This document shows, piece by piece, positions 2,426 to 6,257 of a DNA stretch of 10,026 nucleotides; position 1 is the first letter of the stretch, and each line of letters starts with the position of its first letter. Under the pieces are notes generated by a model that had not been told where the DNA came from, did not search any database, and was given only the letters and a program-made list of their open reading frames with translations. The stretch is from the NCBI GenBank assembly GCA_002686955.1, contig NYZA01000023.1:1-10026 (forward strand), read 5' to 3'. A program made the position numbers and the translations under genes. The DNA comes from Gemmatimonadota bacterium (GTDB lineage Bacteria > GCA-2686955).

Positions 2426-3745
2426 ATGTCCAAAAACCGAAACGAATGGCCGCTCGTCAAAAAGGCGGTCTTCGCGCTGTTCACGATCCTGCTCGTCTTC
2501 GCGACAGCGGAAGCGGGCTTGCGGGCAGCGAGCCGCATCGTCCGTTCGGGCCACGCGAGCGCGAATCCCTATGCAGGAGCGCCCATCGCGCATGAAGAGC
2601 TCCGGATCCTCTGTCTCGGCGACGGATTCACCGAAGGCGCCGGCACCAATCGCCGACACCTCTCGTACCCCGAGCAGCTTGCTCGGATCCTCGCGACCAC
2701 CGACTCGACATCGACCGTCTTGGACGAGAGCGATCGCCCCTTTGTCGAAGCGCCGAAGGACGGAATCCCGACGACCGAAACCGATTTCGATTTCATCGTC
2801 CGGGCTGCCCGAGGACGAGGTTCGAACGAGCTGCTCAGAGAGCTGCCCCGCCTCCTCGAGACGATCCGACCTTCGCTCGTGCTGGTGCTGACCGGTAGCA
2901 CCAACGAGGGTTACGCGCTCGACTCGACCGATTTCATCAATTTCCGCCTCAGCCGTCTGCGAGTCTATAAGGGGCTGAAAATCGCGTTGAACCGTCTTCG
3001 CGCCCTCGTCCCTCGAGACTCGCTCCCACGCCTTCTCCGAGAACCGGCATCGAGCGGCCGAGCGGGCGATCTCCAGCGCGAAAAGCTGCTGGCCACGGTC
3101 TTCGAAGAGGATCTCCGCGGGATCGCGCGAATCTGTCGGGCCGCCGGAGTTACGCCGGTTCTGCAAAGCTATCCGAACGAGCTGGTGGCGGGCCTTCGCA
3201 AAGGCCACGCCGAGCTCGTGCGTCGGGTGGCCGCCGAAGAGAAGGCAATTGCGGTGGATCACTTCTCTCGCTGGAAGAGCTACAGAGCCAAGTATGGAGA
3301 GGCCGCCATCTTCTCGCTCGACCGCGTTCACCCCAACGGATTCGGTTACGGGCTGATGGCCCGCGATATCGCATTCGCGCTCGACGACGCGGGACTCGTG
3401 CCCCGGGGGATCCCTTCAGGCGGCGAGGTCGACGCCTTGCTCTCGAATCTCAGGAACGAGGCGGTCGCAAGGGCGAACAATCCGCACACACGGGCGCTCC
3501 TATTGTACGAGCGCGGCGAGATCGATGAGGCGCTCGCGCTCCTCGTATCGCTGCACCGAAAACAGCCCGCGAACACCGCGGTCAGCCTGGAGCTCGGAAC
3601 CCTGTACGAGCTGCTCGGTCACAGATCGAGCGTACGCCGAACTTACCGAGCTACACTCGACGCGCTCCCCGGTTCAGAGTCCGGCGGTCTCGTGAAGAGG
3701 CGTCTCGACGAGCTGGACCGTCTCGAGGAGCTTCAGCGAAGGTAG
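2426..3745 (+). CDS. Membrane-anchored SGNH/GDSL hydrolase-like protein with TPR-like tail; nucleophile Ser replaced by Gly
   Basis: This 439-residue protein has an N-terminal signal anchor (basic, then hydrophobic at about 13-30), which would place the rest outside the cytoplasmic membrane. The SGNH fold is seen from block I, LCLGDGFTEGAG (63-73), a Gly-rich block II near 130-132, block III TGSTNEGY (156-163, Asn160) and block V DRVHPN (299-304, Asp299 and His302). SGNH enzymes cleave or transfer esters, often acetyl groups on polysaccharides. Here the block I nucleophile is Gly67 (codon GGA, 2624-2626), so normal Ser chemistry is not possible. Residues 345-435 are helical and TPR-like (a YERGEIDEALALL unit, then ELGTLYELLGHRSSVRRTY). 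The start at 2426 is chosen because it leads straight into the anchor; an in-frame ATG at 2279 would overlap the divergent gene. No clear ribosome binding site precedes 2426. It probably shares an mRNA with the dehydrogenase 25 bases downstream. Confidence 0.8.
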   Translation: MSKNRNEWPLVKKAVFALFTILLVFATAEAGLRAASRIVRSGHASANPYAGAPIAHEELRILCLGDGFTEGAGTNRRHLSYPEQLARILATTDSTSTVLDESDRPFVEAPKDGIPTTETDFDFIVRAARGRGSNELLRELPRLLETIRPSLVLVLTGSTNEGYALDSTDFINFRLSRLRVYKGLKIALNRLRALVPRDSLPRLLREPASSGRAGDLQREKLLATVFEEDLRGIARICRAAGVTPVLQSYPNELVAGLRKGHAELVRRVAAEEKAIAVDHFSRWKSYRAKYGEAAIFSLDRVHPNGFGYGLMARDIAFALDDAGLVPRGIPSGGEVDALLSNLRNEAVARANNPHTRALLLYERGEIDEALALLVSLHRKQPANTAVSLELGTLYELLGHRSSVRRTYRATLDALPGSESGGLVKRRLDELDRLEELQRR

Positions 3746-4541: not shown

Positions 4542-6257
4542 CTATCGCCGCCCGAACACGGCCAGAAGATAGTGCCGCCACGGATGTGCGTGCACAAATA
4601 CCCTCTCCGCTCCCAATCCCGCGGCGAGAGTGTCGGTTCCGGACGGCCCGGGTGCGACACTCTCTGGCGGCATGCGCATGTACTGATCTCGAAATCCCGG
4701 ATCTTGGTAGATCCGGCGCGCGTGCGGCAGCAAAGGTGTCAGATCCTCAGCCGAGAGCGCATGCTCATCTCCCCGAATCGGTGCTGTGAAGACAAGAACC
4801 ACGTAGGCCGGAGCGGCATCGACGACGTAGGCCGGATCGTACCATTTATCGAGCGATCCGCCGGGGCTCCGGGCGATCCTCGCATCGGTCAAACCAGCCA
4901 GGTCGAGCAAGCGCAGCTCCATACGCTCATAGCCCACGAGCCCTACATCCATCATGGCAACTGTCTCACCCGATTCGGTCCTCTCGCCCAGCCACTCCGC
5001 GAGCGCGGTATGGCCGGTGGCGTAGCCCCGAGCGCGCACCGAAGCGTACTCGCGCAGACGCTCCCCTTCCGCTCGCTGCGAAAACCACGCCCCACCAACA
5101 ACGATCCCGGCTACGCAATACGAAAGCGCACGCGGCGACACACCCCCGAGGAAGAACCGCGCAATCAAGAGCGCACAGCTCACGCAACCAACCGCCAGCA
5201 CCGCGGACAACAAGGGCAAGTACGGAACGACGAGCCGCGCTCCGGGCATCCAATCGGAGCCCAGTAACAGAGGCAGCAATCCCCCGATGAGGCCGACGAT
5301 CAACGAAGGAGCGACCCTCTTCGCCACGGTCGGCGACAGAATAATTCCAAAGAATCCGACTCCCATTCCCACCACACCGAGCAGAGGCGGGAAGAGCCCG
5401 GAAGAAACGTAGCTCTTTGCGGAGATCCCCCAGAAACCACCAGACTTGGCGTGAAATGTGTTGGGGAACAGCGCGCCCTCATAGAACACATATCGACATA
5501 GTGCGCCGAGGGTCATTGCGGCGGTCACCAGAGCGATGTCGAGCAATAGATATCTCCTCCACCGGCTCGATGGTGGCGGCACTTCTGAATAAACATCCGG
5601 GAGATTCTTGGGGCGATACGCGAGCTCGACGAATCCGGCGCAAATGCACAGGCAAAGCGCCATCGTTCCGCCTTCCGGCCGTAGAAGTGCCGCCGCGGCA
5701 AGCGCAACGCCTGCTCCCGCCCATCGCCCCCGCATCTCTGATCGGAGCAGCAGGAGCGCCCCCGAAGCGAGGCTCAGAGCATAGGGCGCTGTCTCCAGCC
5801 CATTCACACCGTGCATCGCGAATGCGGGAGAAACGACGAGAAGCCCACCTGCCGTCGCGCCGGCTGCCCGGGCGGCGGAGGCTCCCCACTTGGCGAGCAA
5901 GCAGGCGCTTCGAGCGATCCGTGCCGCAACCAGAACGAGCGCGCCCCCCGCGACCAGATCCATGATCTGAGCGAATACCGGCACGAGAGCATGACCGGCG
6001 ATCCGATGCACACCCGCCAAGATCGCCACCCACAATGGGCTCGAATACCCCTCGACCAGCTCTCCCGGATTGAAGACCGGTCCTTCGCCCGATGCCCACA
6101 TGGCCGCGTATCGGAAGAGGATGAACGCGTCGTCGACGCGGTACTCCAGAAAGAGCAGCGCATGAATGAGGAAGGCAAGAGCCAGGCACAGATCGACGGC
6201 TAGTTCGTGGCGCTTCGTGTGGTCGGCCCGCATGTCGTCCGCATCATAGTCGGCCAA
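4542..6257 (-). CDS. Polytopic GT-C-type glycosyltransferase-like membrane protein
   Basis: The 571-residue product has about ten or more hydrophobic segments, then a soluble C-terminal part of roughly 150 residues. After the first membrane segment (about 20-37) comes VDDAFILFRYAAMWASGEG, then GPVFNPGELVEGYSSPLW (59-76). This Asp-Asp first loop and the GxVFNPGExVEGYSSPLW pattern are typical of GT-C enzymes related to arabinofuranosyl- and mannosyltransferases, which use polyprenyl-phosphate sugars outside the membrane. The likely job is adding a sugar to a cell-envelope glycan or lipid; the sugar is unknown. The start is a TTG at 6257, seven bases after the dapF stop; an ATG at 6233 is a good alternative eight residues in. 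Neither has a strong ribosome binding site. It is last in the five-gene operon. Confidence 0.8.
   Translation of the reverse strand: MADYDADDMRADHTKRHELAVDLCLALAFLIHALLFLEYRVDDAFILFRYAAMWASGEGPVFNPGELVEGYSSPLWVAILAGVHRIAGHALVPVFAQIMDLVAGGALVLVAARIARSACLLAKWGASAARAAGATAGGLLVVSPAFAMHGVNGLETAPYALSLASGALLLLRSEMRGRWAGAGVALAAAALLRPEGGTMALCLCICAGFVELAYRPKNLPDVYSEVPPPSSRWRRYLLLDIALVTAAMTLGALCRYVFYEGALFPNTFHAKSGGFWGISAKSYVSSGLFPPLLGVVGMGVGFFGIILSPTVAKRVAPSLIVGLIGGLLPLLLGSDWMPGARLVVPYLPLLSAVLAVGCVSCALLIARFFLGGVSPRALSYCVAGIVVGGAWFSQRAEGERLREYASVRARGYATGHTALAEWLGERTESGETVAMMDVGLVGYERMELRLLDLAGLTDARIARSPGGSLDKWYDPAYVVDAAPAYVVLVFTAPIRGDEHALSAEDLTPLLPHARRIYQDPGFRDQYMRMPPESVAPGPSGTDTLAAGLGAERVFVHAHPWRHYLLAVFGRR

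Follow-up and report, generated by a model that had tools for sequence, protein, structure and literature searches.

A probable SGNH pseudoenzyme with glycine in place of the nucleophile serine in an uncultured Gemmatimonadota bacterium

The window analysed here is one whole contig of 10,026 bases from the genome of an uncultured Gemmatimonadota bacterium (G000; 84.5% complete, 270 contigs). One of its genes, P0001, forms an intact frame of 439 codons from ATG to TAG on the forward strand, at the place where it had been predicted (Table 1). Its GC content by codon position (0.69/0.47/0.75) resembles that of the surrounding genes, which makes the frame look coding. The neighbours encode an ArsM-like methyltransferase, a DUF7544 membrane protein, an SDR (25 bases downstream), DapF, a CYTH protein and ThiC; they are unrelated, and a clear partner of P0001 is absent among them. 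No promoter-like site was found near P0001, and terminator-like sites near it are no commoner than in shuffled sequence. The reverse strand of the window (4545-6257) also encodes a hydrophobic protein of 571 aa, to which no Pfam model matched at E 0.01. The start of this protein (VDDAFILFRYA..VFNPGE.VEGYSSPLW) may resemble GT-C type glycosyltransferases.

From N to C terminus, P0001 carries a membrane helix, an SGNH (GDSL_2) domain and a TPR region. The Pfam model Lipase_GDSL_2 (PF13472) matches residues 63-309 at 35.0 bits, above its cut-off of 32.9, and blocks I to V occur in order, which places the protein in the SGNH/GDSL fold family. Alignments show a hydrophobic stretch at the same N-terminal position in the paralogue P0002 and in other relatives, and the TPR tail is likewise common to P0001 and P0002. 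A search of NCBIfam with P0001 gave no significant match, and a sequence search of solved structures returned nothing significant (best E 0.34). AlphaFold models made without an alignment were not interpretable (pLDDT 42 for the whole protein and 37.5 for the SGNH part alone). Support for the original prediction that the fold is kept is therefore limited to the sequence profile match.

Table 1. Features of P0001 in the window, and its closest paralogue elsewhere in the genome
Feature	Position	Strand	Description
P0001 CDS	2426-3745	+	439 aa, ATG to TAG; from translation, Pfam and codon-position GC
Hydrophobic N-terminal segment	2456-2527	+	VKKAVFALFTILLVFATAEAGLRA; about residues 11-34, read from the sequence; predicted signal anchor or signal peptide
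Block I	2618-2638	+	GDGFTEG, residues 65-71; Gly67 (GGA, 2624-2626) replaces the nucleophile Ser
Insertion between blocks I and II	2705-2791	+	About 24 residues (approximately residues 94-122), without counterpart in aligned relatives; edges uncertain
Block III	2894-2905	+	GSTN, residues 157-160; the oxyanion Asn position holds Thr159 and the next N/D position holds Asn160
Block V	3320-3334	+	DRVHP, residues 299-303; retains Asp299 and His302 of the catalytic pair (alignment)
TPR-like tail	3488-3673	+	About residues 355-416; TPR_19 at 360-416 and TPR_14 at 355-392, both below gathering scores
P0002	G000:C108:11697-13133	-	SGNH-TPR paralogue, nearest to P0001 in the tree

The glycine that had been reported in place of the block I serine, and its GGA codon, were confirmed. 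Gly67 falls on the nucleophile column without gaps in alignments with relatives, and this column is Ser in 27/27 relatives of the P0001 clade; P0001 lacks the block I Ser of a catalytic SGNH hydrolase. The catalytic pair is present: Asp299 and His302 align with the catalytic Asp and His of the relatives, and block V retains the Asp-x-x-His of active family members. Asn160 had been listed with this pair as a kept residue, and here the original prediction did not stand. Block III of the relatives is GxNN or GxND, in which the second residue after the Gly is the oxyanion Asn, and alignment rules out Asn160 as that residue, since it lies one position further on; the oxyanion column in P0001 holds Thr159 (ACC), which follows Gly157-Ser158. 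Column 159 is Asn in all 27 clade relatives, and P0001 lacks the block III Asn of a catalytic SGNH hydrolase; its oxyanion asparagine has very probably been replaced. In block II, Gly130 aligns to the conserved oxyanion Gly, in a register made uncertain by the adjacent insertion. P0001 resembles the PF13472 family in its profile match, its ordered blocks and its Asp-His pair, but differs from SGNH hydrolases of that family in having neither the Ser nor the oxyanion Asn and in carrying the insertion before block II.

A further arrangement of block III was seen in loci L025, L037, L043 and L045 (G256) and L073, L080 and L087 (G290), where a TPR-sized insertion splits the SGNH domain between blocks III and V. 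Block III of these loci reads GGQN or GSAN, the Ser is intact, and the oxyanion Asn seems to be shifted by one position.

The same kind of nucleophile loss has been described in plants. Arabidopsis ERMO3/MVP1/GOLD36 (At1g54030) is a GDSL pseudoenzyme with a Ser-to-Gly change in block I and was reported to be without lipase activity (PMC4757993, PMC3498303), and restoring the Ser by a G59S change left the function of ERMO3/MVP1 unchanged (PMC3498303, PMC4757993). By analogy, this protein is a direct precedent for Gly67 in P0001. The likeness between these two GDSL proteins lies in the kind of loss, close kinship not being established, and ERMO3/MVP1 differs from P0001 in being a secreted plant protein of the GDSL lipase-like family. 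To our knowledge, it has no TPR. In a non-exhaustive search of the open-licence literature, no Ser-to-Gly GDSL pseudoenzyme outside plants was found described.

A search of G000 with the Pfam model identified 24 SGNH places. Block I can be read in 15 paralogues besides P0001, and each of them carries Ser (in GDS, GGS, GNS, GES or GSS); within this genome the double replacement is restricted to the P0001 paralogue. In a tree of 97 domains P0001 groups with P0002 (SH-aLRT 87, not starred). The two proteins share the hydrophobic N-terminal helix, the SGNH domain and a TPR tail ending RL.ELD.LE, and are 27-30% identical over their length. P0002 differs in retaining Ser (GDSYTYG) and in reading GLNN and DGSHP, and scores 68 bits against Lipase_GDSL_2 versus 35 for P0001. 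Since all 15 of these paralogues have Ser and P0001 groups with P0002, the Ser appears to have been lost on the branch of P0001 itself, after the duplication that separated the two. P0002 overlaps the end of a same-strand upstream FG-GAP/UnbV_ASPIC gene (L058:11697-14946 of G000:C108), and it may be cotranscribed with this repeat protein. Another SGNH and TPR paralogue, L014 (G000:C143:42385-42996, reverse strand), keeps Ser (GGSSCFG), but GAVQQS replaces its D..HP and its block III reads AQED; judging from these residues, what it has lost is the other half of the catalytic site, Asp/His.

On the proposed check of whether homologues across genera share the Gly, no orthologue turned up in G001 or among several hundred further genomes. 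The phylum of G000 is represented by two genomes in the collection searched, of which G001 is the sole same-family genome; no SGNH gene was recognised on the G001 contig that carries a DUF7544 relative. When 60, 290, 39 and 195 additional genomes (partly overlapping sets) were searched with proteins or profiles, the yield was only distant SGNH proteins or nothing. Peptide-pattern scans of genome and viral contigs gave no relative of P0001, although the patterns avoided the catalytic blocks, so that these blanks weigh little. As no orthologue was found, P0001 could be a duplicate in early decay rather than a protein long conserved in a dead state.

We consider P0001 most likely to be an SGNH pseudoenzyme specific to its lineage, which arose by duplication and is kept, anchored in the membrane through its N-terminal helix, as an SGNH-TPR binder or scaffold, and give this reading a probability of roughly 0.6. 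Among 26 alignment columns that are at least 80% conserved in the 27 Ser-bearing clade relatives, P0001 keeps 21, including Gly65, Asp66, Thr69, Gly71, Pro82, Gly157, Tyr249, Asp299, His302, Pro303, Gly307, Tyr308 and Ala312. All core positions occupied by Gly, Pro, Tyr, Leu or Ala are kept. The five departures are all at polar positions, namely Ser67 and four Asn columns (100, 132, 159 and 164), with the register of columns 100 and 132 less certain as they adjoin the insertion.

This pattern bears on the strongest competing explanation, that P0001 is a decaying duplicate on which constraint has been relaxed, the active-site changes being early steps of loss with no new role. Such a course would fit the failure to find an orthologue in the same-family genome, a domain score weaker than that of the sister, the additional residues ahead of block II, and the existence of a paralogue without Asp/His. 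Random decay would not, however, be expected to leave every structural position intact, and the losses are confined in a non-random way to polar Ser and Asn positions, although five departures make a small sample. The frame is also unbroken with typical codon-position GC, and the end branch of P0001 (1.19) is no longer than those of many Ser-bearing relatives. We regard decay as unlikely, if the most serious of the alternatives.

Less probable still is that P0001 remains an enzyme in which another residue (e.g. Thr69, Ser158, Thr159 or Ser133) or an activated water works with Asp299-His302. The retained pair would allow this, and the oxyanion is arranged differently in the SASA SGNH family (PMC9487903). 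In some relatives with an intact Ser, block III is GGQN (G256) or GSAN (G290) at the same offset, so a change of Asn159 to Thr alone need not abolish activity. On the other side, Gly67 aligns to the nucleophile without gaps, and Thr69, two positions off, is conserved in the family and occurs in Ser-bearing relatives too. In the SGNH lipase SrL of Streptomyces rimosus, either Ser-to-Ala or block III Asn-to-Ala, singly, abolishes activity (PMC10779480).

Having lost both the Ser nucleophile and the oxyanion Asn, P0001 would be unable to form the SGNH acyl-enzyme intermediate. It is, on the evidence of its residues, probably catalytically dead. The original prediction of a site that is otherwise kept but has lost its nucleophile is borne out, and inactivity is better supported than it claimed, since the block III Asn is replaced as well.

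That an assembly or sequencing error in this metagenome-assembled genome turned Ser into Gly is very improbable even for a single contig of an incomplete, 270-contig assembly, because no Ser codon can be reached from GGA by fewer than two substitutions (the sister P0002 uses TCA), the frame is intact and Asn159 is changed too; the earlier argument against a single sequencing error is upheld, and Gly67 is very probably real.

Under the pseudoenzyme reading, duplication would have been followed by the loss in P0001 of Ser (to Gly67) and of the oxyanion Asn (to Thr159), with the structural core and the Asp-His pair retained. The protein would then most likely be tethered outside the cytoplasmic membrane as a binder or scaffold. 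Its emptied pocket could hold an acylated glycan or similar ligand uncleaved, and its TPR could contact a partner. A binding or scaffold role is the most likely one, given that the core and the Asp-His pair are retained and a TPR is present.

We also considered how often the nucleophile is missing elsewhere. The set used comprises 170 distinct SGNH domains, most of which come from a single SGNH-rich phylum and from G000. Ser fills the nucleophile column in 166 of them, Gly in 3 (P0001 included) and Ala in 1. The three other non-Ser domains are orthologues and belong to one family in another uncultured phylum, here called WPHP. With two members found later, this family has six (L194-L199), of which one has Ser (G292), two have Gly (G293 and G294) and three have Ala (G291, G181 and G290). 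Block I reads GD[SGA]W or GGAW, block V is W..WPHP without the catalytic Asp, and the block III Asn is replaced by Thr, Gln or Ala. The WPHP proteins resemble P0001 in having a membrane-anchored SGNH domain, a replaced block III Asn and a mostly non-Ser nucleophile position, but they have lost the Asp too, are without a TPR tail and form a separate, starred clade. The tree requires a minimum of two changes between Ser and non-Ser, one in P0001 and one in the WPHP family, which, judged by its residues, is an independent loss and a pseudo-SGNH family. The block III Asn is absent in 4/4 non-Ser domains versus 25/156 Ser-bearing domains with a letter there, and the associated Fisher p of 0.0009 overstates the association because only two independent events are involved. 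A first look by profile search gave 77-125 SGNH candidate places in each of G181, G290-G294 and G036 (the phylum of G181), a very large expansion.

A possible though doubtful generalisation is that, in bacteria with large SGNH expansions, SGNH enzymes anchored in the membrane repeatedly become subunits that no longer catalyse and serve instead in ligand binding or regulation. Two independent instances would be P0001 and the WPHP family, in which Ser and the oxyanion Asn are lost together; they would act either as acylated-glycan receptors or as partners to the active paralogues. The presence of Ser, Gly and Ala among six WPHP orthologues suggests that dead SGNH proteins arise repeatedly in uncultured bacteria and are under-described there, and proteins of a similar kind are already known in plants. 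SGNH domains without a nucleophile are automatically annotated as esterases or lipases, and P0001 suggests that such calls can err. P0001 and P0002, with the same order of parts in one genome, offer a clean pair in which the loss of catalysis and a gain of binding may be tested.
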